From the IMG/VR virus record IMGVR_UViG_3300021964_000509, positions 1 through 24,608 of that record: DNA of 24,608 bases; one strand, written 5' to 3'. The DNA comes from a virus. Positions 3,660 to 19,415 of the stretch are shown piece after piece. Position 1 is the stretch's first letter. Each line of letters starts with the position of its first letter. The notes under the pieces were generated by a model. It saw only the letters and a program-made list of their open reading frames with translations. It was not told the origin of the DNA and ran no database searches. The translations under genes and the position numbers were made by a program.

Positions 3660-3667
3660 TATAAATA
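3660..3667 (+). promoter_or_regulatory. T4-type late promoter (TATAAATA)
   Basis: An exact TATAAATA octamer lies 19 bases before the spanin-like gene at 3686, with a Shine-Dalgarno sequence (CGGAG) between them. In T4 this octamer is the whole late promoter, recognised by the phage sigma factor gp55 with the sliding clamp. Its place before lysis-type genes fits late expression. Confidence 0.75.
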
Positions 3668-3685: not shown

Positions 3686-4093
3686 ATGTTAAGAATTTAT
3701 ATATTAGTTGCAGTTATTGGACTTGTTGGTGGTGCAGTTTATGGTGCGTACTTTTACTACAAAGATACACAAGCACGTATTCAAACCCTTACGGAAAATG
3801 CAGCCAAATTAGAAATTGCAACTCAAACACAAAAAAATACCATAGATACTCTTGTGCAAGATGCTGAAAAAAATGCAGAACTTGCTAAAGAACTAAATAA
3901 AAGACTTGAAGCTGCTAATGTTTATAAAAATAAATTAATTGGCAAATTAAGAAAACATGATCTTTCTCGTTTAAGTCAACAAAAACCTGCTTTGGTTGAA
4001 GGAAAAATAAACAATGCAACAAAGAGATTACTTGCCGAATTTGAAACAATCACTGGCTCTGTTTCTGTTATTGCCAATACTTCTACTGAGTAG
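3686..4093 (+). CDS. Putative inner-membrane spanin (Rz-like)
   Basis: This 135-residue protein has one N-terminal transmembrane segment (about residues 4-25). A long hydrophilic, helical and Lys/Glu-rich periplasmic region (about 28-100) with strong coiled-coil character follows. That topology, and the out-of-frame overlap with a lipoprotein gene, matches i-spanin/o-spanin pairs, which fuse inner and outer membranes in the last step of lysis of Gram-negative hosts. A T4-type late promoter lies directly upstream. No sequence identity to lambda Rz is visible, so the assignment rests on topology and gene arrangement. An alternative is an unrelated membrane-anchored coiled-coil protein. Confidence 0.55.
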   Translation: MLRIYILVAVIGLVGGAVYGAYFYYKDTQARIQTLTENAAKLEIATQTQKNTIDTLVQDAEKNAELAKELNKRLEAANVYKNKLIGKLRKHDLSRLSQQKPALVEGKINNATKRLLAEFETITGSVSVIANTSTE

Positions 4094-4466
4094 TGGGTGT
4101 TCGGTCTGGCCAAAACTAAAAGAAATATCTGTTCAAACTGTAGAAGTTAAAAGAACTATTCCATTACAAAATAATCCTCGTCCTGTTGATATGAACGAGA
4201 TGTATTTTTGGGTGGTTACAGAACAAAACTTTGATGAGTTTAAAGCTAAGTTTATTGACAAAAATACAGAATTTTTATTTTATGGTATCAGTGTAAGAGA
4301 TTATGAAAACCTTGCACTTAATATGGCAGAAATAAAAAGATACATAGAACAACAGAAAGAAATTATAATTTATTATGAAAATGCAATAACTTTTCAACAA
4401 ACTGGTAAAAAACCAAAAGAAGAGAAAGAAAAAGAGGTAAAGGATAATGGGAAAGTTCAACAATAA
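4014..4466 (+). CDS. Putative outer-membrane lipoprotein spanin (Rz1-like)
   Basis: This is a 150-residue predicted lipoprotein. A charged N-terminus is followed by a hydrophobic stretch and a lipobox LSSGC, with the modified cysteine at residue 29. The first 80 bases, including the entire signal peptide, overlap the end of the upstream membrane gene in another frame, an arrangement typical of spanin genes. The mature part (about 120 residues) is longer than most Rz1 proteins, with a helical middle (YENLALNMAEIKRYIEQQ) and a Lys/Glu-rich tail. Predicted location is the inner leaflet of the outer membrane. The lipoprotein call is firm; the spanin role is inferred from the pairing. Confidence 0.6.
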   Translation: MQQRDYLPNLKQSLALFLLLPILLLSSGCSVWPKLKEISVQTVEVKRTIPLQNNPRPVDMNEMYFWVVTEQNFDEFKAKFIDKNTEFLFYGISVRDYENLALNMAEIKRYIEQQKEIIIYYENAITFQQTGKKPKEEKEKEVKDNGKVQQ

Positions 4467-9233: not shown

Positions 9234-9661
9234 ATGGATGATTGGTTAGAAGAACTAAAAAAATGGGCTCAATAGATATTCCTGATGATGCTGTGCATAA
9301 TAGTGGATATATTAGTGAGACAGTGTATAAGGAATGTTCTGAAAGAATGAAACAGAACAACCCTATGCACAACCCAGAAACTGTGGAGAAGATGAGGCAG
9401 ACTAAACTTGCAAAGTTTGCATCTGGTGAGTTGAAACCTAATATTATGGGGGAACAGGCTAGAAAAGAAGCATCCGAAAGGATGAAAAAAAATAACCCAG
9501 CACATACACACCCAGAGAAACATAACTTCAAAGGGAACTCATGGGTTAAAGGACGTAAGTGGTATAATAACGAAACAGAAAATCTTTACATATTCGGTGA
9601 ACCACCAAAAGGATATGTTGAAGGTATGATGTATAAACCAAAAAAGAGGACGAAAAAATAA
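9234..9661 (+). CDS. NUMOD3-type homing-endonuclease-related protein, read through a -1 frameshift
   Basis: The best-signalled start is ATG 9234 (AAGGAG eight bases upstream), giving MDDWLEELKK before an early stop at 9275. The long frame continues from 9242 to 9661, but its only starts are a TTG at 9242 and an ATG at 9263 without good ribosome sites. A run of seven A at 9257-9263 sits in the phase A_AAA_AAA, so a -1 slip would fuse the two parts as MDDWLEELKK-MGSIDIPDD (join 9234..9263 and 9263..9661). The body holds two NUMOD3-like repeats (SERMKQNNPMHNPE and SERMKKNNPAHTHPE), DNA-binding motifs of homing endonucleases, and a C-terminal GRKWYNNETEN...PPKGYVEGM domain. No HNH or GIY-YIG catalytic motif is visible. 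It sits between nrdA and nrdB, a site invaded by mobile genes in other T4-like phages. Confidence 0.6.
9257..9263 (+). promoter_or_regulatory. Candidate -1 ribosomal frameshift site (A_AAA_AAA)
   Basis: Seven A residues lie in the correct phase for tandem slippage in the frame that begins at ATG 9234. Slippage joins MDDWLEELKK to the long NUMOD3-containing frame. No strong downstream hairpin is obvious by eye. A single missing A in the sequence would give the same apparent structure, so an assembly or sequencing error is the main alternative. Confidence 0.4.
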
Positions 9662-10935
9662 TGTCAGGGATAAGAATAGTAACAAAATCAGAATGTCCAT
9701 TTTGTTCAATGGCCAAAAATTGGCTCAAAGAACACTCTTTTGAATATGTAGAAGATTTAATTGACAATGAAGAAGAACGTCTTGCGTTCTATCAAACCAT
9801 TAATGGTGCAACAGAAATTGTTGGTGAGTTGCCAAGTCGCAGAATTAATTCTGTGCCACAAATTTTTATTGACGATAAACATATCGGTGGGTATGAAGAG
9901 TTGATGAAAATTGGTGATGACCTATTAAGAAAACGTAGTGGTGGTGGACTGATGCAATTTAGTGAAACCTATAAACCATTTCATTATCCTTGGGCAGTAG
10001 AGATTACCACACGCCATGAGAAAGCACACTGGATAGAAGATGAGCTTGATTTGTCTGATGATGTTTCAGATTGGAAGTCTGGTAAGGTCACAGATATTGA
10101 AAAAGAATATGTCACAAACATTTTACGTTTGTTTACACAGTCAGATGTTGCAGTCGGTCAGAACTACTATGACCAGTTTATTCCTAAGTTTAAGAATAAT
10201 GAAGTGCGTAATATGCTTGGTTCTTTTGCAGGCCGAGAAGGTATTCATCAACGTGCGTATGCGTTACTCAACGAAACACTAGGACTACCAGACAGCGAGT
10301 ATCATGCGTTTCTAGAATACAAAGTAATGGTTGATAAGATTGAGTTTATGCAAGAGTCTGATAATAATAGTATGAAGGGTTTAGGTCTTGCACTTGCAAA
10401 GTCTGTATTTAATGAAGGTGTTGCGTTGTTCGCATCATTTGTTATGCTTTTGAACTTTCAAAGGTTCGGTAAAATGAAAGGTATGGGCAAAGTTGTTGAA
10501 TGGTCTATTCGTGATGAGTCTATGCATGTCGAAGGAAATGCAAAACTGTTTCGTCAATTTTGTGTTGAACACCCCAAAGTAGTTGATGATGAATTTAAAC
10601 AAAGTATATACGAGATGGCTCGTGTTGCAGTTAAACTAGAAGATAAGTTTGTTGACCTTGCATATAAGTTAGGAAATGTTGATGGTCTAGAAGCGTCTGA
10701 AGTAAAATTATATATAAGGTATATAACAGACAGAAGATTATTACAGTTAGGTTTAAAGACTAACTTTAAGGTAAAAGAAAATCCTTTACCTTGGCTAGAG
10801 TGGGTTTTGAATGGTGCAGACCACACTAACTTTTTTGAAAATCGTGTTACAGAATATGAAGTAGCAGGATTGTCTGGTAATTGGGATGATGCATATGGAG
10901 AAGAAAATGAGGTGGCCGTATGCTTAACGAATTAA
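9661..10935 (+). CDS. nrdB: Glutaredoxin-ribonucleotide reductase small subunit fusion
   Basis: This 424-residue protein has two domains. Residues 1 to about 95 are a glutaredoxin with active site Cys12-Pro-Phe-Cys15 and the cis-proline in NSVPQIF (Pro66). Residues from about 100 are a class Ia beta subunit with all metal ligands (Asp162, Glu193, His196, Glu252, Glu286, His289) and the radical Tyr200 in EGIHQRAY. Fusion to the reductant should couple NrdA re-reduction to catalysis in one complex. The ATG overlaps the upstream stop by one base (TAATG). The protein is longer than E. coli NrdB (376) because of the fusion. It acts in the cytoplasm with the NrdA at 7396-9201. Confidence 0.95.
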   Translation: MSGIRIVTKSECPFCSMAKNWLKEHSFEYVEDLIDNEEERLAFYQTINGATEIVGELPSRRINSVPQIFIDDKHIGGYEELMKIGDDLLRKRSGGGLMQFSETYKPFHYPWAVEITTRHEKAHWIEDELDLSDDVSDWKSGKVTDIEKEYVTNILRLFTQSDVAVGQNYYDQFIPKFKNNEVRNMLGSFAGREGIHQRAYALLNETLGLPDSEYHAFLEYKVMVDKIEFMQESDNNSMKGLGLALAKSVFNEGVALFASFVMLLNFQRFGKMKGMGKVVEWSIRDESMHVEGNAKLFRQFCVEHPKVVDDEFKQSIYEMARVAVKLEDKFVDLAYKLGNVDGLEASEVKLYIRYITDRRLLQLGLKTNFKVKENPLPWLEWVLNGADHTNFFENRVTEYEVAGLSGNWDDAYGEENEVAVCLTN

Positions 10936-12175: not shown

Positions 12176-12206
12176 AAGCTAAATACTTTCACAGTATAGA
12201 TATTAT

Positions 12207-12214
12207 TATAAATA
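12207..12214 (+). promoter_or_regulatory. T4-type late promoter of the curli operon (TATAAATA)
   Basis: An exact TATAAATA lies in the only intergenic gap before the curli block, 22 bases before the GTG start at 12237, with a GAGG ribosome-binding sequence in between. No other promoter is evident before 18421. The eight genes from 12237 to 18390 should therefore be expressed late, under gp55-type control. Confidence 0.75.
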
Positions 12215-12236
12215 GTGATAATACGAGGTCATAAAT

Positions 12237-12530
12237 GTGGATGTATTTACTTTAATTGCAGAGGTTGGTGTCCCTATTGCTGTCGCAATAATTATGGGAT
12301 TTTTTATTTTTATGGTATTAAAACAAATACTAGAAGGTATAATCGACCAAATAAAAACTTTAACCATGTTTTGTAAAATGCTTGAGGATCGTGCTAGAGT
12401 GGGTTGTAATGAACTTATAAAAATTGATTTGTTGGTCAGTTCTGCTTTAGGAGTAACACCCGACATTGAACGCATTTCTAGAGCTGAAAACTTTAAAGAA
12501 GATGGTAAGTTAGATGTGAGGAGAGACTAG
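12237..12530 (+). CDS. One-TM membrane protein heading the curli operon (paralogue 1)
   Basis: This is a 97-residue protein starting at GTG 12237, chosen because ACGAGG sits nine bases upstream and the overlapping ATG at 12235 opens only a seven-codon frame. Residues 4-30 form a single hydrophobic segment (FTLIAEVGVPIAVAIIMGFF and on), followed by an amphipathic helical region with two cysteines. It aligns without gaps over about 65 residues to the next protein (AEVGVP/AEFGFP; MGFFIF/MGYFIF). The short TM plus helix layout recalls BhlA/UviB or YvrJ-type holin-like proteins, but membership is not certain. It could be an accessory factor of the secretion system or a holin. Confidence 0.6.
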   Translation: MDVFTLIAEVGVPIAVAIIMGFFIFMVLKQILEGIIDQIKTLTMFCKMLEDRARVGCNELIKIDLLVSSALGVTPDIERISRAENFKEDGKLDVRRD

Positions 12531-12850
12531 TGGAAAATGCAGCTGGTTTAGTTGCTGAATTTGGATTTCCAGTTGTTATGGCTGTTGGTATGGGATATTT
12601 TATATTCTACATATGGCAGTTTATTAGTAATAACATTCAACCAGAGATAGATGCGATGCATTTAGCTCTTATAAAATGTATTGATCAGAATCGTATGTTA
12701 GACAATGATATGATACGGTTACAACAAAAGGTAAAGGTAGTTTTAGAGTATAGAGAAAAAGATAAAATGCAAGAGGAAATACAAGAACAAGCAGAAAAAA
12801 TTAGTAACGAAAAGGCGTTATCTGGGGAAAGGCAAAATGAAAATAAATAG
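12530..12850 (+). CDS. One-TM membrane protein of the curli operon (paralogue 2)
   Basis: This 106-residue paralogue of the preceding protein has TM segment AEFGFPVVMAVGMGYFIFYI (about residues 9-28), then a helix (IQPEIDAMHLALIKCIDQNR) and a charged coiled-coil tail rich in Glu and Lys. The GTG start overlaps the previous stop by one base (TAGTG), with AGGAGAG upstream, so the two proteins are co-translated and may form hetero-oligomers. The stop overlaps csgF by 14 bases. Tandem duplication of a small membrane protein directly before CsgF/CsgG is, as far as I know, not part of bacterial curli operons. The role is open: holin-like, or inner-membrane support for curlin export. Confidence 0.6.
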   Translation: MENAAGLVAEFGFPVVMAVGMGYFIFYIWQFISNNIQPEIDAMHLALIKCIDQNRMLDNDMIRLQQKVKVVLEYREKDKMQEEIQEQAEKISNEKALSGERQNENK

Positions 12851-13316
12851 AGCACTTAATTTTAAAATTAAAATAGCTATTTTATTATCAATATTTTTGT
12901 GTATGCACGTTGCAGAATATGCTAGAGCAAACGATTTGACTCATCAGTGGAAGTCACCAGCTTTTAGTGGGAGCGGATATAGTTCCCATGTATTAACAAT
13001 TGAAAACCAAGAACATTCTAGAAAAAAAACAATACGAGAAAAAAGAGAAGCTGCAGAAAGAGAAGCAATAAGAGATGCAGCTAATACAAATCTTTCAAAG
13101 TTTATGAAAAATGTAGAATCAAGAATTTATGCCCAGTTATCTAAACAACTTGTAGATAATATGTTTGGTGAAGGTTCTGAAAATGAAGGCACAGTAACAT
13201 TTGAAGGTACAACAATTAGTTACGCTAAAAGTACGGATAACGTAACATTAACAATAGTGGATGCAAATGCAAGCGAAACGGTTATTACAGTTCCTATCGG
13301 CGATTTTACTTTTTAG
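12837..13316 (+). CDS. csgF: CsgF-like curli assembly factor
   Basis: This is a 159-residue secreted protein. Residues 1-31 are a signal peptide ending ARA. The mature N-terminus (LTHQWKSPAFSGSGYSSHVL) matches the CsgF segment (FRNPNFGG in E. coli) that inserts into the CsgG channel. The helix SKFMKNVESRIYAQLSKQLV and the C-terminal beta part (GTTISY, NVTLTIVD, ETVITVPIGDF) also match the family. In E. coli CsgF caps CsgG on the cell surface and links secretion to CsgB nucleation. Here the conserved Asn residues of the insertion segment are replaced by Ser/Ala. A charged helical insert (HSRKKTIREKREAAEREAIR) lies between the two halves. The last 56 bases overlap csgG. Confidence 0.85.
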   Translation: MKINRALNFKIKIAILLSIFLCMHVAEYARANDLTHQWKSPAFSGSGYSSHVLTIENQEHSRKKTIREKREAAEREAIRDAANTNLSKFMKNVESRIYAQLSKQLVDNMFGEGSENEGTVTFEGTTISYAKSTDNVTLTIVDANASETVITVPIGDFTF

Positions 13317-14049
13317 TTTAGTTGGTTGTGCTACATATGAAAGAATAGAACGACCAACATCTACATCATTTCCGATGGTGAAAAAATTAAAAGATTTTGC
13401 ACCTCCCGAAAGGAAGGTGGAAATAGCTGTTTATCAATTTATTGATCAAACAGGACAGAGGAAGCCTAGCGACAATCTTGCTTCTCTAAGCACAGCTGTG
13501 ACACAAGGAGCAGGAACGTGGTTAGTACAAGCACTTAAATCTGCTGGAAATGGAAAGTGGTTCACAGTTGTAGAAAGGATGCAATTAGACCAGTTATTAA
13601 AAGAACGGCAAATCATAAGAAATACGAGAAGTACTTATGAAGGAGATAAAGCAGAGAAAACTAGACCTTTATTGTTTGCTGGTGTTATAGCAGCTGGTGG
13701 GATTGTTGGTTATGACTCTAATACCGAAACTGGTGGTATTGGTGCAAGGGCTTTAGGAATAGGTATTCAAGACGAATACCGCAGAGATATGGTATCGGTT
13801 GCACTAAGATTAATATCGGTACAAACTGGCGAAGTTTTGATTGCAGTAAGCTCTCAAAAAACCATACTAAGTACAAAGGTTGGTATGAATGTTTTTAAAT
13901 TTTTAGATGTGGGTACTAAGTTGGTGGAAGTTGAAGCTGGTGCAACCGAAAATGAGTCTACGTCTTACGCAGTTCGAAAAGCAATCGAACACTGTGTAGG
14001 ACAGATGATTGAAGAAGGAATAAAAAAGGAACTATGGAAGTTTAAATAA
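13261..14049 (+). CDS. csgG: CsgG-like outer-membrane curli secretion channel
   Basis: This 262-residue lipoprotein has lipobox LVGC with Cys23 after a hydrophobic signal peptide. The body follows E. coli CsgG closely: VAVYQF-like VEIAVYQFIDQTGQ, the constriction loop KPSDNLASLSTAV, VERMQLDQLLKERQIIR, and the signature GGIGARALGIG (158-168). SVALRLISVQTGEVL, SQKTILSTKV and FKFLD follow. CsgG forms a nonameric outer-membrane pore exporting curlin subunits. E. coli constriction residues Tyr51, Asn55 and Phe56 align to Asp71, Ser75 and Leu76 here, and the E. coli C-terminal helix after LW is missing. The signal peptide is encoded inside csgF (56-base overlap; a second ATG at 13267 is possible). 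Export without CsgE is implied. Confidence 0.93.
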   Translation: MQMQAKRLLQFLSAILLFSLVGCATYERIERPTSTSFPMVKKLKDFAPPERKVEIAVYQFIDQTGQRKPSDNLASLSTAVTQGAGTWLVQALKSAGNGKWFTVVERMQLDQLLKERQIIRNTRSTYEGDKAEKTRPLLFAGVIAAGGIVGYDSNTETGGIGARALGIGIQDEYRRDMVSVALRLISVQTGEVLIAVSSQKTILSTKVGMNVFKFLDVGTKLVEVEAGATENESTSYAVRKAIEHCVGQMIEEGIKKELWKFK

Positions 14050-14061
14050 GGAGACAACTAA

Positions 14062-14745
14062 ATGAAAGCTAGCATACTTACAGTTCTCGCTTACTTTGTT
14101 ATGATGAGTGTGGGTTATGCGAGTGATGTATACATTACGCAGTCGGGTGCAAGTCTTACTGCAAACATCAATCAAGATGGACAGACCAATAAATTTGGTA
14201 ATTCAACTACGGACGTTACTTTAACAGGTGATACTCAAACATTGGACGTTGATCAAATTGGTAATACAAATACCATTGCAGCTTCTGTTGTGGGTGCGAC
14301 ACAAACATTCACACTTAAACAAGAGGGTAACAGTAATACGTCTACTGTTTCGGTTGGTGCTAACTCTGCGTCAGCAGACAACAGTATTATTCAAACTATT
14401 ACTGGTAGTCAAAACACCACAACAGTTAATGTGGGCAATAGTGCAGCCTCCAGTGATGCAGACATTGATTTAGTCGCAACTGGTGACAGCAACACTATAA
14501 CCATTAATGAAAACAGTACTGCATCAATGTTAGGTGATGATAAGAAGATAACAAACATTACAGCAATTGGTGGCAGCAATACCATTACATCAACACATAC
14601 TGGTGCGGCTGACCAAGACACAACTCTACATCACACTGGTTCTTCAAGTACGTTTTCTATAACTCAAGGTGGAGCATACGATGGAACAGTTGATATGACA
14701 ACAGTTGGGTCGGGACATAATGTTACAATTACTATGGACGATTAG
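14062..14745 (+). CDS. Curlin-repeat protein 1 (CsgA/CsgB-like)
   Basis: This is a 227-residue protein with a signal peptide ending VGYA and then curlin repeats of the type I-x-Q-x-G-x-x-N. Good copies are NINQDGQTN, DVDQIGNTN and TLKQEGNSN, with partial ones at YITQSG and SITQGG; central repeats have lost the Gln (LVATGDSN, ITAIGGSN). Such repeats form the amyloid cross-beta fibre of curli. Ser, Thr, Asn and Asp dominate and there is no cysteine. A strong ribosome site (AAGGAG) precedes the ATG, 12 bases after csgG. It is the likely substrate of the adjacent CsgG/F channel. The degenerate repeats could suit a nucleator (CsgB-like) role; this is inference. Confidence 0.88.
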   Translation: MKASILTVLAYFVMMSVGYASDVYITQSGASLTANINQDGQTNKFGNSTTDVTLTGDTQTLDVDQIGNTNTIAASVVGATQTFTLKQEGNSNTSTVSVGANSASADNSIIQTITGSQNTTTVNVGNSAASSDADIDLVATGDSNTITINENSTASMLGDDKKITNITAIGGSNTITSTHTGAADQDTTLHHTGSSSTFSITQGGAYDGTVDMTTVGSGHNVTITMDD

Positions 14746-15781
14746 TCTATTTCTTATTACTGGTAGTGTTTATAGTGCGATAGGAGATGTAGTTAAACAA
14801 GAAGGGAATGCTTCTGTGGAAAGATCAGGCGAAAAATCTGATCTACAAAAAGGTTCGAAGATTGAGTTTAAAGACAATGTTCGAACTGGTCGCGGTGACG
14901 TTGGTATCAAATTTGTAGATGATACAAATGTCGCAATAAGCTCACACAGTTCGTTAGTGATAGATGACTTTGTGTATGACCCAAATAATAAAGGTGGGTC
15001 TAAACTTATAATGAATGTTGCATTGGGAACAGTTAGATATGCAAGTGGTAATATTGCAAAACTAAATGCTCAAAATGTTGATATTCGCACTCCAACTGCA
15101 CGAATAGGTGTGCTTGGAACTGCGTTTAGTATGACAGTTGATGAGGTAGGAAAATCTTTGGTTATCCTACTTCCCAATGCAGATGGAACGGTGGGTAAAA
15201 TTTCAGTAGAAAGTGATGTTGGTCAAGTCATTCTTAATCAAGCATTTCAATCCACACTAGTCACAAATGGTGAGAGTGTACCAACTAAACCAGTTATACT
15301 TGATTTGACGTTAGACCAGATTAACAACTTATTAATAATTAAACCACCTAAAGAAAAACTTATAGAGATAGTCAGAAATTCTAATAGTCTAAAAAATTTA
15401 CTGGATATAGACTTTTTAGAATATAGAGAGTTGGAAAAGAACCAGCTTGATGAAGATGAATTACAATTTACTGAATTGGACATTAATCCTTTAGATGTAG
15501 ATTTGTTGATGAATGTACTAGACCAATTGATTTCATTGACCGCACAATCAGAAATGGTAGACGGAAGAACAAGTGGGTTCAACAAATCAACTCAAGTCAA
15601 TACGCTTCGTGATGGTTCTCGTTTAGAAATAATTAGACAGGTTGGATCAAGTAATATTCATTTAAAATTAAATGCAGATTGGGGTTATGTAATCAATTTA
15701 ACGCAAGGTGGAATACCTGTGCCGGAGATAACGACAGATGACGAAACTACTAATAATATTGTTATCTATCAGTCTGAGTAG
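14720..15781 (+). CDS. FecR-domain secreted protein with C-terminal curlin-like repeats
   Basis: The start chosen is ATG 14720, which gives a clean signal peptide (MLQLLWTISLFLITGSVYSA); an in-frame TTG at 14705 would add five residues. The 353-residue product has a FecR domain at about residues 25-145: KQEGNASVERSGEKSDLQKG, a GD-type turn (GRGDVGIKFVDDTNVAISSHS), and the hallmark VDIRTPTARIGVLGTAF. A Leu/Asp/Glu-rich linker follows, then two curlin-like motifs, IRQVGSSN (Gln307, Gly309, Asn312) and LTQGG (329-331). FecR domains act in the periplasm, classically in signal transfer. The gene overlaps curlin 1 by 26 bases and curlin 2 by 44. The curlin-like end suggests direct contact with the fibre or its subunits. 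Confidence 0.82.
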   Translation: MLQLLWTISLFLITGSVYSAIGDVVKQEGNASVERSGEKSDLQKGSKIEFKDNVRTGRGDVGIKFVDDTNVAISSHSSLVIDDFVYDPNNKGGSKLIMNVALGTVRYASGNIAKLNAQNVDIRTPTARIGVLGTAFSMTVDEVGKSLVILLPNADGTVGKISVESDVGQVILNQAFQSTLVTNGESVPTKPVILDLTLDQINNLLIIKPPKEKLIEIVRNSNSLKNLLDIDFLEYRELEKNQLDEDELQFTELDINPLDVDLLMNVLDQLISLTAQSEMVDGRTSGFNKSTQVNTLRDGSRLEIIRQVGSSNIHLKLNADWGYVINLTQGGIPVPEITTDDETTNNIVIYQSE

Positions 15782-16532
15782 TATTGCACACGCTGACAAC
15801 AGTGTGTTCATAGAACAGATTACTGCCAGTGATGATACAACAATAACCATCAACCAAGACGGTAATAACAATGCTGTCAACTTGTCTATGGCTCATGATG
15901 ATAACACACTTGATTTTGATCAAGTAGGAAACAACAATACAATTAGTTGGGTTTCCTATTGGGGTTCGGGTAAAAGTTGGGGTGGAGACTTGGACGGAAC
16001 AAATAATGACATAAAGATTGAACAGAATAATACTATTGGTTCTGATTCAAACAAAGTCGGGTTTCACATACAAAGCAACAACAACAATGTTCATGTGTGT
16101 CAAGGATCTACTTTTGCCAGCAGTACATCTACGTCTTGTTCTGGATCTAGTTCTGAAGAATATGGTGGACATACCACTAATCTAGATTTACATTCTGGCA
16201 GCAATAATATAAAGATAGGACAACAAACTGGTACAGGAAATGCAGATCATTATGTCCAACTATATACATATGGCGGTGAGAATAACGATATTTTTGTAAA
16301 CCAAAATGGTAACGGAAATAAAACATTAAACATGACTGTACGAACTGATGGTGGCGAACAATCTATAATTCAGAAAGATAGTGGAGCTCATACTGCGACA
16401 ATAGATTTAACAGGAAGTTATCACACAGATTTAGATTTAAAACAACAGGGTAGTACTAATCAATCGTATAGTTTAACACAAAATTGTCAAACGTCTGGCG
16501 GTTGTGGAATATCATTAACACAAGGAAATTAA
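15738..16532 (+). CDS. Curlin-repeat protein 2 (CsgA-like)
   Basis: This is a 264-residue secreted protein with signal peptide MTKLLIILLSISLSSIAHA. The curlin repeats include ITINQDGNNN, DFDQVGNNN, IFVNQNGNGN and DLKQQGSTN, with spacer-rich variants between them (IKIEQNN, IKIGQQTGTGN, IQSNNNN). They are spaced irregularly, unlike the evenly spaced repeats of E. coli CsgA. Two cysteine pairs (HVCQG/TSCSG in the middle and NCQTSGGC near the end) could form disulphides in the periplasm and would affect passage through the pore. The signal peptide is encoded within the end of the FecR gene (44-base overlap). It is probably the main fibre subunit; which of the two curlins is the nucleator cannot be told. 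Confidence 0.88.
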   Translation: MTKLLIILLSISLSSIAHADNSVFIEQITASDDTTITINQDGNNNAVNLSMAHDDNTLDFDQVGNNNTISWVSYWGSGKSWGGDLDGTNNDIKIEQNNTIGSDSNKVGFHIQSNNNNVHVCQGSTFASSTSTSCSGSSSEEYGGHTTNLDLHSGSNNIKIGQQTGTGNADHYVQLYTYGGENNDIFVNQNGNGNKTLNMTVRTDGGEQSIIQKDSGAHTATIDLTGSYHTDLDLKQQGSTNQSYSLTQNCQTSGGCGISLTQGN

Positions 16533-16533
16533 A

Positions 16534-18390
16534 GTGAAAAAATGGATTGTCTCTATATTAGTTATCTTGCTCTTTTGTGGTATTCGTTATTCAGACCCTT
16601 GGTTTTTGGATATGGTGCGACTGAAAGCACTAGACCAACACCAAAGAACACAACAGGAAACAATCACAGAAAAGATTGTAACTGTAGAAATAGATAATGA
16701 TTCTATAAGAGAAAATGGTCAATGGCCTTGGCCCAGAAACGAATTAGCAAAAGACATTGAAGAATTGTATCGCATGGGAGCTGCGATTGTTGTAGTGCCT
16801 GTATTATTTGCAGATGCAGATAGAATGGGTGGCGATCAGCAATTTGATGAGATGTTGAAAAAGACTCCCACCATCATAGGACAAATACCAGCAAACCAAA
16901 CCAAAGGCAATCCTGTACCCAGAGGAGTTGCAACGATAGGAGCTCCTTGGCAACCTTGGGTGTATAATTACGAGGGTGCGGTTGGGCCAATAGAATCATT
17001 TGCGAAATCTGCAATAGGTGTGGGTATGATGTTGATTGCACCAGAGGGGGATGGTGTGGTTCGTAGGATGCCTTTAGTGGTTCAGATAGACGGACAACTA
17101 TACCCATCGTTATCTATGGAGATATTAAGAACAGCTGCTGGAGATATGAGCTATCAGATGAAGATTGGTGAGGGTGGTATTGAAGCACTACGCATACCAA
17201 AATACAAAACAATAACAACTGATGCAAATGGCGCAATTTGGATTGACTTTAAATGGAAAACAAAAACCTATGCGATAAACAGATTGACAGAAAAAGAACT
17301 ATTTGATGGATTAAATTTTACAGGAAAAATTGTTATACTTTCACCAACTGCATCTGGTATTGATAATCCAGTTGCAACACCAGTGGGAGTTATTCAAAGC
17401 CATGATTTGATAGCTGCATCTATAACAACCATGATGACAGGAAGAAATATCACAAGGCCATTCTGGTCTGATTTAGCAGAGTTGTCAGTTACCTTAGTCG
17501 CGTCACTTATACTGACTGCGGTGGTGTTAACACTAAGTTGGTATTTCGGTGCGATACTGTTACCATTGTTTCTTGCTGGGTCGTATTATGGAAGTTCATA
17601 CTTATTTACTGAATACAGTTATCTAATAGATTGGTCTTATCCTATTCTCACTATGTTTGTGGTTTGGTCAGTTGCAGCTTTCCTGCGGTTCATGGAAGAG
17701 TTTAGATTGCGTCAACAGATTAAGAAACAGTTTGAACATTACCTTGACCCAAGACAGGTTGCAATTTTACAGAAAAATCCAGAAGCACTAAAACTTGGTG
17801 GTGAACGTAGAGAGATGAGTTTTCTTTTTATGGACATTGTTGGGTTTACACCCATATCAGAATACTACAAAAACAATGATGACCCAGAAGGATTGGTCGA
17901 GTGTATCAATGACTACCTAGACCGCATGACTAAGATTGTCTTGGATAATGGGGGAACGGTAGACAAATACATGGGTGACTGTATCATGGCATTTTGGAAC
18001 GCACCACTGGATTGTGAAAACCATGCAGAACTCGCAGTTCGTACCTCTATGGAGTGTGCGGTGGAGACTGAGAACCTAAAGGCTGCATGGAAGGAGAAAG
18101 GACTACCAGAGATTAATATCGGTAGTGGTGTCAATACAGGAACATGCATTGTGGGTAATATGGGTAGTACCACCAGATTTGACTATTCGGTTATTGGTGA
18201 TGCAGTCAATCTGGCTGCAAGATTAGAGGCTTCGACTCGTAATTATCACAAGGAAGATGGTAGTATTGTTAACACCATATATTCTTCATACACCCAAGAA
18301 CAGTTACCAAATGACCTAAAAGGTGTTGAAATAGACAAAATTAAGGTCAAAGGTAAAGAAGAATTAGTAACTATTTACAAATCTCTATGA
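16534..18390 (+). CDS. CHASE2-class III adenylate cyclase
   Basis: This 618-residue membrane enzyme starts at GTG 16534, one base after curlin 2. An N-terminal anchor (about residues 5-18) is followed by an extracytoplasmic CHASE2 sensor domain (about 40-305; VTVEIDNDSI, NGQWPWPR). Three transmembrane helices (about 314-386), a linker (FEHYLDPRQVAIL) and a cytoplasmic cyclase domain follow. Catalytic residues are present: metal-binding Asp434 (FLFMDIVGFT) and Asp482 (DKYMGD), adenine-type Lys478, and transition-state Asn559 and Arg563 (VNLAAR). Ser552 replaces the usual Thr/Asp beside Lys478, which still favours ATP over GTP. It should turn a periplasmic signal into cAMP. FecR genes next to CHASE2-cyclase genes also occur in bacteria, from memory. 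Confidence 0.93.
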   Translation: MKKWIVSILVILLFCGIRYSDPWFLDMVRLKALDQHQRTQQETITEKIVTVEIDNDSIRENGQWPWPRNELAKDIEELYRMGAAIVVVPVLFADADRMGGDQQFDEMLKKTPTIIGQIPANQTKGNPVPRGVATIGAPWQPWVYNYEGAVGPIESFAKSAIGVGMMLIAPEGDGVVRRMPLVVQIDGQLYPSLSMEILRTAAGDMSYQMKIGEGGIEALRIPKYKTITTDANGAIWIDFKWKTKTYAINRLTEKELFDGLNFTGKIVILSPTASGIDNPVATPVGVIQSHDLIAASITTMMTGRNITRPFWSDLAELSVTLVASLILTAVVLTLSWYFGAILLPLFLAGSYYGSSYLFTEYSYLIDWSYPILTMFVVWSVAAFLRFMEEFRLRQQIKKQFEHYLDPRQVAILQKNPEALKLGGERREMSFLFMDIVGFTPISEYYKNNDDPEGLVECINDYLDRMTKIVLDNGGTVDKYMGDCIMAFWNAPLDCENHAELAVRTSMECAVETENLKAAWKEKGLPEINIGSGVNTGTCIVGNMGSTTRFDYSVIGDAVNLAARLEASTRNYHKEDGSIVNTIYSSYTQEQLPNDLKGVEIDKIKVKGKEELVTIYKSL

Positions 18391-18420
18391 AAATCAATGA
18401 CTTACGGATAGCAATTTGCC

Positions 18421-18449
18421 TTGACAAAGTATGGCCCACCCCTTATAAT
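18421..18449 (+). promoter_or_regulatory. Strong sigma-70-type early promoter
   Basis: TTGACA (18421-18426) and TATAAT (18444-18449) are both exact consensus with a 17-base spacer. It lies in the 90-base gap after the cyclase gene and should start a new early transcript. The predicted start point is near 18456, five bases before an ATG at 18461. Confidence 0.88.
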
Positions 18450-18460
18450 GGTTACATAAG

Positions 18461-18484
18461 ATGAAAAAAGAGGTGACTGAGTGA
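18461..18484 (+). other. Seven-codon ORF overlapping the next start
   Basis: ATG 18461 encodes MKKEVTE and stops at a TGA that overlaps the GTG start at 18481. The ten bases at 18461-18470, followed after a ten-base interval by GTGAGTAAA, match the continuous sequence ATGAAAAAAGTGAGTAAA at 18756-18773. It may be a decayed former start region now acting as a leader. Coding status is uncertain. Confidence 0.3.
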
Positions 18485-18708
18485 GTAAAGTGAATAATTG
18501 GATAATGGAAATGGAAGACTACACAGCTGATGCGGCTGAAGAGGTACTTTCGCAATTGGAAGATGTCACCAGTAAAGAAACAATCCTTTCAAATATACTT
18601 GAGTACGTCAAAGAACGTATGGAAATTGTTGACGAAAGTTACATAAAAGAGTATTTTGAAACAAATATTGACGAGTGGCGATTTGAGTTTAATTCAAAAT
18701 ATATCTAG
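18481..18708 (+). CDS. Small acidic early protein
   Basis: This is a 75-residue acidic, helical protein (for example AEEVLSQLEDV and MEIVDESYIKEYFETN) of unknown function. The GTG start is set by AGAGGTG upstream and is preceded by a consensus host promoter, so it should be expressed right after infection. Small acidic early proteins of phages often bind and redirect host enzymes, but no specific target is indicated. The first codons (GTGAGTAAA) match codons 4-6 of the next gene's ORF, which hints that the two leaders arose by duplication. Confidence 0.6.
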   Translation: MSKVNNWIMEMEDYTADAAEEVLSQLEDVTSKETILSNILEYVKERMEIVDESYIKEYFETNIDEWRFEFNSKYI

Positions 18709-18715
18709 TCCTGCC

Positions 18716-18744
18716 TTGACAAACCCTGTTCGGTGTGTTAGCAT
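18716..18744 (+). promoter_or_regulatory. Sigma-70-type early promoter
   Basis: TTGACA (18716-18721) with a 17-base spacer to TAGCAT (18739-18744), which keeps the TA...T pattern of a -10 box. The next start codon (18753) is only nine bases downstream, so transcription would begin about two bases before it. Confidence 0.65.
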
Positions 18745-18752
18745 AGTTATAT

Positions 18753-19223
18753 ATGATGAAAAAAGTGAGTAAAAATATGAAGTTCGAATTCTTTTGTGAC
18801 AAACCCCAGAAAAAAACTGTGACAAGTCACGATCATGTAATCAACTCTAACTGTGAGTGGAATACGCTGTCTAACAAAAATGCAGAAGTCAAAATATTTG
18901 ATATTGTGATGGATGCAGTTGATTATGAAACTTTCATAAGACTCTATCATGCAGCTCTAGTTTCAGAGTATGTTCCAAAAGATGCGATGGAAACCTATAG
19001 AATGTGGTGTGCTGATATCACTGAAATACTTCTCAACAACGAAGAGAAGAATTTAAGTAGGTTAAAAATCAAAGAGTATGCTTTGTGTCATCGTGATTTG
19101 AAAGACTACAAACAAGAGTTCGATTGGGAAATGGTTGCTTTGAAGAAAGCAAAAGAAAAGTACCCACCACGTTATAGAGCTCTGTACTACAGACCAGAAG
19201 TAAAACTTGCGTTGGCCGCATAA
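18753..19223 (+). CDS. Early protein of unknown function
   Basis: The open frame gives 156 residues from ATG 18753; other starts in frame are ATG 18756 and ATG 18777. The first two suit an almost leaderless mRNA from the promoter just upstream; the third has a weak AGTGAG site before it and would give MKFEFFCDKPQ. The protein is largely helical and basic towards the end (KEYALCHRDLKDYKQEF, KKAKEKYPPRYRALYYRPE). No known domain is recognised. Its own strong host-type promoter marks it as early, and its place among small early genes suggests a host-takeover or regulatory role, by inference only. Confidence 0.6.
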   Translation: MMKKVSKNMKFEFFCDKPQKKTVTSHDHVINSNCEWNTLSNKNAEVKIFDIVMDAVDYETFIRLYHAALVSEYVPKDAMETYRMWCADITEILLNNEEKNLSRLKIKEYALCHRDLKDYKQEFDWEMVALKKAKEKYPPRYRALYYRPEVKLALAA

Positions 19224-19232
19224 GGAAATTTT

Positions 19233-19415
19233 ATGAAATACTACGAACAAAATGTACCATCCTTTGAAATTGAATGGAAATATTCAGCCACCGTATATAA
19301 CGAGTGCATGAGGCGTGCAGAGGAAATACTTGCATCATCTATCTTTGCAAAGGTGGTTGATGAGAATGATTTGATTGCACTTACTGAAAAACTAGTAGAA
19401 GAATACGAGGAATAA
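19233..19415 (+). CDS. Small acidic early protein
   Basis: The 60-residue protein starts at ATG 19233 after an AAGGAAA ribosome site. It begins MKYYEQNVPSFEIEWKYSA and is followed by amphipathic helices with an acidic C-terminus (LTEKLVEEYEE). No family is recognised. It lies nine bases after the preceding early gene and shares its transcript. The length, composition and clean Shine-Dalgarno sequence support it being a real gene. Confidence 0.55.
   Translation: MKYYEQNVPSFEIEWKYSATVYNECMRRAEEILASSIFAKVVDENDLIALTEKLVEEYEE

Follow-up and report, generated by a model that had tools for sequence, protein, structure and literature searches.

The window analyzed here is the whole of one viral contig, the 24,608-nucleotide IMG/VR record IMGVR_UViG_3300021964_000509. 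It carries eight tightly packed genes on the + strand (12237-18390), after an exact TATAAATA at 12207-12214, in the order tmA-tmB-csgF-csgG-curlin 1-FecR-curlin 2-CHASE2 adenylate cyclase. It is probable, though well short of certain, that these genes form a functional type VIII secretion cassette that a T4-like phage, a relative of the pelagimyophages and Melnitz, expresses late and that would put phage-encoded curli-like fibres on the infected cell. The analysis supports the original prediction of a type VIII secretion operon that is encoded by the phage, has curlin-type substrates of its own and is preceded by a late-type promoter, and the cassette is a divergent, deep-branching new example of a known pelagiphage module. 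All the genes listed in that prediction are present; two genes of the unit, at 12237-12530 and 12530-12850, had been overlooked.

Pore, curlins and accessory proteins

CsgF, CsgG, FecR, CHASE2 and the cyclase were identified by Pfam profiles over curated cut-offs. CsgF (12837-13316), which has a signal peptide, matches PF10614 at 1.6e-21, while CsgG (13261-14049), an outer-membrane lipoprotein pore, matches PF03783 at 9.2e-55 and CsgG entries in the PDB at 2e-62; the profile searches that had been called for on these two proteins were thereby positive. Alignment shows that the N-terminal F-K-x-P-x-F segment of CsgF, the part that docks to CsgG, is common to the window protein and E. coli, with P41, F43 and G45 conserved. 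CsgG aligns with its E. coli counterpart at 40%, and the lipobox Cys23 is invariant; the constriction residues Y51 and F56 of E. coli CsgG are not retained in the phage proteins.

Curlin 1 (14062-14745) and curlin 2 (15738-16532) have signal peptides, as judged by eye, and contain three and five copies, respectively, of the curlin core Q-x-G-x-x-N, against 0.11 and 0.29 in shuffled sequences; curlin 2 ends in a conserved C-terminal cap with two Cys. Neither window curlin alone passes the PF07012 cut-off (E ~0.2). At a permissive E <= 1, PF07012 is matched by 19/24 homologues of curlin 1 (best 6e-10) and 20/21 of curlin 2 (best 5e-18). The earlier description of two curlin-repeat proteins with signal peptides is thus borne out by homologue families, core repeats and inspection of the N-termini, but the window copies are sub-threshold on their own. 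The phage curlin 2 profile matches E. coli CsgB and CsgA, as well as csgG-adjoining curlins in most of ~70 bacterial loci. The AlphaFold model of curlin 1 is all-beta with good confidence (predicted local distance difference test, pLDDT, 82). In the isolate HTVC008M, curlin 2 (L002 10638-11963) has an extra N-terminal domain, and L015 and other loci have different N-terminal additions; one member of the curlin 2 alignment gives a PA14 match (PF07691, 2.7e-6), which is probably this HTVC008M domain. A PA14-type domain on HTVC008M curlin 2 fits a fibre bearing variable adhesive parts.

Between the two curlins lies the FecR-domain protein (14720-15781; PF04773, 5.6e-7), with a signal peptide, a periplasmic FecR fold and a CsgB-like C-terminal end. 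In 26/26 homologues scanned, the FecR domain is the only domain found and is preceded by a signal peptide, again judged by eye, and the cytoplasmic sigma-binding N-terminus is absent from all of them. A classical anti-sigma FecR regulator was rejected on these two grounds, and the published iron-regulator label is probably better dropped. The AlphaFold model (pLDDT 72) matches the periplasmic domain of PupR (E 4.6e-5) and the cell-surface anchoring domain of the adhesin MpAFP (5ix9; E 6e-4, 62 columns, 0.9 Å, 39% identity), the latter also being reached by the FecR sequence profile at E 0.06. A C-terminal [VIL]x[VIL]xQ pattern is found in 67/67 FecR proteins, 73/78 first curlins and 22/48 second curlins, compared with 4/1656 other open reading frames (ORFs), and E. 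coli CsgB ends in the same pattern. Among the weak matches of the FecR tail profile outside FecR, 18/22 are curlins. With moderate confidence, the FecR-domain protein is taken to be an exported anchor or nucleator.

The two overlooked genes, tmA (97 amino acids, 12237-12530) and its paralogue tmB (106 amino acids, 12530-12850), both belong to phrog_18771 and have one N-terminal membrane helix and a coiled coil. Their homologues have 57-126 residues, mostly ~95, with conserved N-D and R residues in the coiled coil. Among 50,697 phage records they are restricted to phages with the curli cassette, and, with the phage-like contigs L085-L089 and L159 set aside, the bacterial csgG loci examined yielded none. 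In at least eight loci the pair lies on the opposite strand beyond the cyclase, and elsewhere it is interleaved with csgF, but it stays with the module. By their position, tmA and tmB would be the genes published as 'histidine kinase'. A kinase domain (HisKA/HATPase) was found in 0/45 scanned homologues, and similarity to the YvrJ family is weak (E ~0.1); a histidine kinase identity was rejected, and the published label is probably better dropped.

The last gene (16534-18390) encodes a CHASE2 sensor joined to a class III adenylate cyclase (PF05226, 4e-40; PF00211, 1.5e-15), which adenylate cyclases in the PDB match at 1.8e-30. The aligned catalytic residues are D434, K478, D482, S552, N559 and R563, comprising the metal-binding aspartates D434 and D482, the base-reading K478 and the transition-state pair N559/R563 of class III enzymes. 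With CHASE2 and a complete class III active site, the earlier sensor-cyclase reading is reasonable. The CHASE2 sensor should be exposed to the periplasm, the expected location of the FecR protein, and a signal from FecR to CHASE2 is a guess. The same CHASE2 half is followed by one of two types of cyclase catalytic domain (L003 12661-14712 and similar loci), the Melnitz type having Ser in place of the transition-state Asn.

Promoter, mobility and selection

The T4-type late promoter is represented by its -10 element, the exact TATAAATA on the + strand, which is also the left border of the mobile unit. On the + strand of the window, TATAAATA occurs 3 times against 1.55 expected, a count that alone is not significant. 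To compare order and promoter, 80 related viral loci were collected; in 29/80 of them, TATAAATA lies 8-30 nt (77 nt in one locus) upstream of the first module gene, compared with 2.8% of random 120-nt windows, so that the motif predicted ahead of the unit is both exact here and conserved in its placement. The eight-gene order mostly recurs among these loci where the contig is long enough, and it is the same in HTVC008M and Melnitz; the conservation of gene order in related phages, which the original prediction had proposed as a check, was therefore found.

The CsgG tree groups the viral sequences in a single clade (99/98), separate from alphaproteobacteria and E. coli, and the window together with the viral contig L005 alone makes a deep separate branch. 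L005 is 79% identical in DNA to the window over 12206-18230; the homology begins exactly at TATAAATA, with unrelated sequence upstream, and stops near the 3' end of the cyclase gene. L005 has the cassette between the orthologues of the window's spanin region, upstream, and the primase region; HTVC008M has it between the single-stranded DNA-binding protein and the tape measure; and in L036, the module occupies the same nrdB-RusA...rnh neighbourhood as in the window. Since the homology with L005 starts at TATAAATA and yet the cassette sits elsewhere in that genome, the cassette moves as a unit together with its late promoter.

Relative to L005, the ratio of non-synonymous to synonymous substitution rates (dN/dS) is 0.036 for tmA, 0.18 for tmB, 0.20 for csgF, 0.14 for csgG, 0.10 for curlin 1, 0.15 for FecR, 0.09 for curlin 2 and 0.12 for the cyclase, absolute values being rough at a dS of ~1. 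All eight genes are under purifying selection and kept as working genes, the curlins as strongly as the pore; decay of a passenger was rejected because dN/dS is well below 1 in every gene. The independent contig L004 is 100% identical over 12730-19244 (6.5 kb), covering most of the module and the right junction, while the left junction is supported by the gene neighbourhoods of relatives rather than by an identical second contig. An assembly chimera was rejected from the identity of L004 across the right junction and the shared neighbourhood in L036, and these same two loci exclude the bacterial chimeric join that the original prediction had named as fatal to it.

FecR and full-length cyclase of this type were found only in these phages among the 50,697 records. 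Several bacterial or bacterial-labelled sequences resemble the module. L121 (7176-12782) is a chromosomal csg operon in a Gammaproteobacteria metagenome-assembled genome, which contains csgF, csgG, a FecR gene and three curlins. The L121 CsgF matches the phage proteins at 138 bits, compared with ~67 or less for other bacterial CsgF, and a similar CsgF is absent from other members of the order; the L121 CsgG branches within the viral clade, its branch being long and weakly supported. L121 would be either the source of the viral module or a bacterial genome that acquired it. L085-L089 and L159 contain phage-type curli genes in species-genome bins labelled Flavobacteriaceae, Rhodobacteraceae, Pirellulales and Pelagibacter, with the whole cassette in L085 and L086; these contigs are most likely phage DNA in bins. 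The 1499-base record OR851715.1, labelled Salmonella phage, matches CsgG (39%) and is probably host csg DNA rather than phage.

As predicted, the rest of the window encodes T4-type primase, ribonucleotide reductase (RNR) and RNase H, the last being an RNase H-type exonuclease. The nearest isolates for these genes are the Methylophilales phage Melnitz and pelagimyophages, Melnitz being closest for the RNR large subunit (75%) and the primase (54%). The cassette is flanked by a methyltransferase on one side and, on the other, by a gene at 18481 followed by rnh. No transfer RNA or Rfam RNA element was found in the window, hence neither a transfer-messenger RNA nor a riboswitch as in Melnitz. The window also encodes, at 3686-4466, an overlapping i-spanin/o-spanin pair that matches Rz-like families at 4e-13 and 9e-12 and has a separate TATAAATA at 3660. 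The RNR small subunit (9661-10935) begins with a fused glutaredoxin/thioredoxin-type domain (phrog_22, residues 6-84), and between nrdA and nrdB a short TTG-started ORF (9242-9661) with weak HNH endonuclease similarity is possibly a homing endonuclease or its remnant.

Proposed mechanism and competing explanations

In the proposed mechanism, the phage-modified RNA polymerase would transcribe the cassette from TATAAATA late in infection, and Sec would export the two curlins, CsgF, the CsgG lipoprotein and the FecR-domain protein. The CsgF-capped CsgG pore would then pass the curlins to the cell surface, where curli-like fibres would assemble; these steps of late transcription, Sec export, pore formation and export of fibre-forming curlins follow known curli biology, the lipobox and the docking segment being kept. 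The FecR-domain protein, probably partly periplasmic, may act as anchor or nucleator and reach the fibre with its CsgB-like end; the CHASE2-cyclase may read the envelope, perhaps through the FecR protein, and produce cyclic AMP (cAMP); and tmA and tmB may be obligate inner-membrane partners. The likely benefit would be a sticky or shielded infected cell. A more elaborate version, which is possible but rather doubtful, makes the FecR-domain protein a third exported fibre component instead of a regulator: an anchor or nucleator retained in the periplasm, with a FecR fold like the surface-anchoring domain of a giant adhesin and a C-terminus imitating CsgB. In this version, the protein, tmA/tmB and the cyclase would jointly amount to a virally rewired curli system, with the CsgG pore as the route through which the fibre is tethered, and the cassette would carry its late promoter along as it spreads between sites and between phages.

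Four observations weigh against a fibre-exporting cassette. No csgE-like gene was found among the module ORFs, and CsgC and CsgD genes are likewise absent from the module; the curlin 1 model has no significant CsgA match in Foldseek (E 2.2), its best match being the SufB/SufD beta-helix (E 0.016); hhalign did not establish homology between the FecR tail and the curlins (12% with curlin 2); and Melnitz in culture showed no clumping (PMC9004378). As to the first, CsgE is present in E. coli and absent from alphaproteobacterial operons (PMC9599517), so its lack is no bar to type VIII membership.

The competing explanation that survives best, though it is unlikely, is a new use of the CsgG/CsgF pore, as proposed for Melnitz: it would act as a gated secretin or pinholin timing lysis, with the curlins incidental. 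The late promoter ahead of the cassette, the position of the L005 cassette directly downstream of the lysis-gene region and the absence of clumping in Melnitz all agree with it. However, purifying selection acts on both curlins and the FecR protein as strongly as on the pore, and Buchholz et al. made the proposal believing the curlins absent; in addition, the window, L036 and HTVC008M have the cassette at a distance from the lysis genes, and the phage has its own spanin pair for outer-membrane disruption, therefore having less need for CsgG as a lysis pore. A role in lysis is less likely than fibre export.

Slightly less credible is a separate envelope-signalling pair of FecR and cyclase exerting cAMP-driven control of host genes, with fibre export secondary. 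Both FecR and CHASE2 are periplasmic domains and the cyclase active site is complete, but the FecR gene sits between the curlins and its product has their end motif; moreover, the bacterial csgG loci examined have no such cyclase beside them, and the pairing is thus not one that bacteria habitually make. It is improbable that the pore instead admits nutrients (iron, vitamins or larger molecules) into the infected cell, with FecR as the link to iron, as suggested in PMC7029224 and PMC9599517. The absence of a CsgE gate gene and the loss of Y51 and F56 from the constriction would suit such a channel, but it leaves unexplained CsgF, the two conserved curlins and a FecR protein without the sigma-binding part of an iron regulator. 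Finally, bacterial DNA misjoined into a viral contig, or a decaying passenger, has a negligible chance of being correct: CsgG and CsgF are bacterial families and viral-like contigs do occur in bacterial bins, but L004 is identical across the right junction, the isolates HTVC008M and Melnitz also have the module, tmA, tmB, FecR and full-length cyclase of this type are confined to these phages, and dN/dS is low throughout.

If the cassette works as a fibre exporter, some of the commonest ocean phages would make their hosts, SAR11 and OM43, which are unable to make such fibres themselves, display curli-like fibres, and encounter, aggregation and superinfection in the open ocean would be altered. 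The conserved promoter predicts late timing, curlin 2 varies in its adhesive domains, and the revision of the 'histidine kinase' and iron-regulator labels leads to specific structural hypotheses.

Comparison with known systems

Zaragoza-Solas et al. (2020; PMC7029224) reported csgF and csgG in pelagimyophages and proposed 'sibling capture', and Buchholz et al. (2022; PMC9004378) described the pore in Melnitz, thought the curlins missing and proposed a role in lysis. Wittmers et al. (2022; PMC9599517) found the whole module in podo- and myoviruses of pelagiphage type, in the same order: one or two 'histidine kinases', CsgF, CsgG, CsgA/B, FecR, a second CsgA/B and adenylate cyclase. They detected it at every one of 65 ocean stations, and metatranscriptomes showed its expression. 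The original prediction was therefore wrong to regard the complete set, including both curlins, FecR and the cyclase, as undescribed; aggregation of neighbours and a block to superinfection had likewise been proposed already in PMC9599517 and PMC7029224.

The window thus has its gene set and order in common with the published pelagiphage type VIII secretion module. Unlike the published labels, its 'histidine kinase' genes are without a kinase domain, and its FecR protein looks exported and fibre-linked. HTVC008M (NC_020484) has all eight genes in the same order, with 48% identity to the window in CsgG, 47% in FecR and 52% in the cyclase, but its cassette is not near nrdB/RusA/rnh and its curlin 2 has the extra N-terminal PA14-type domain. 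Melnitz (MZ577097) also has all eight genes in the order of the window, but its cyclase catalytic domain is of the other type, with Ser in place of N559 and a longer C-terminus. CsgG, CsgF and curlin-repeat substrates are common to the window and bacterial curli systems (E. coli csgBAC/csgDEFG and alphaproteobacterial csgF-csgG-curlin operons). Unlike the E. coli system, the phage module is without CsgC, CsgD and CsgE, while tmA/tmB and the cyclase occur in none of the bacterial csgG loci examined and FecR in only one (L121).

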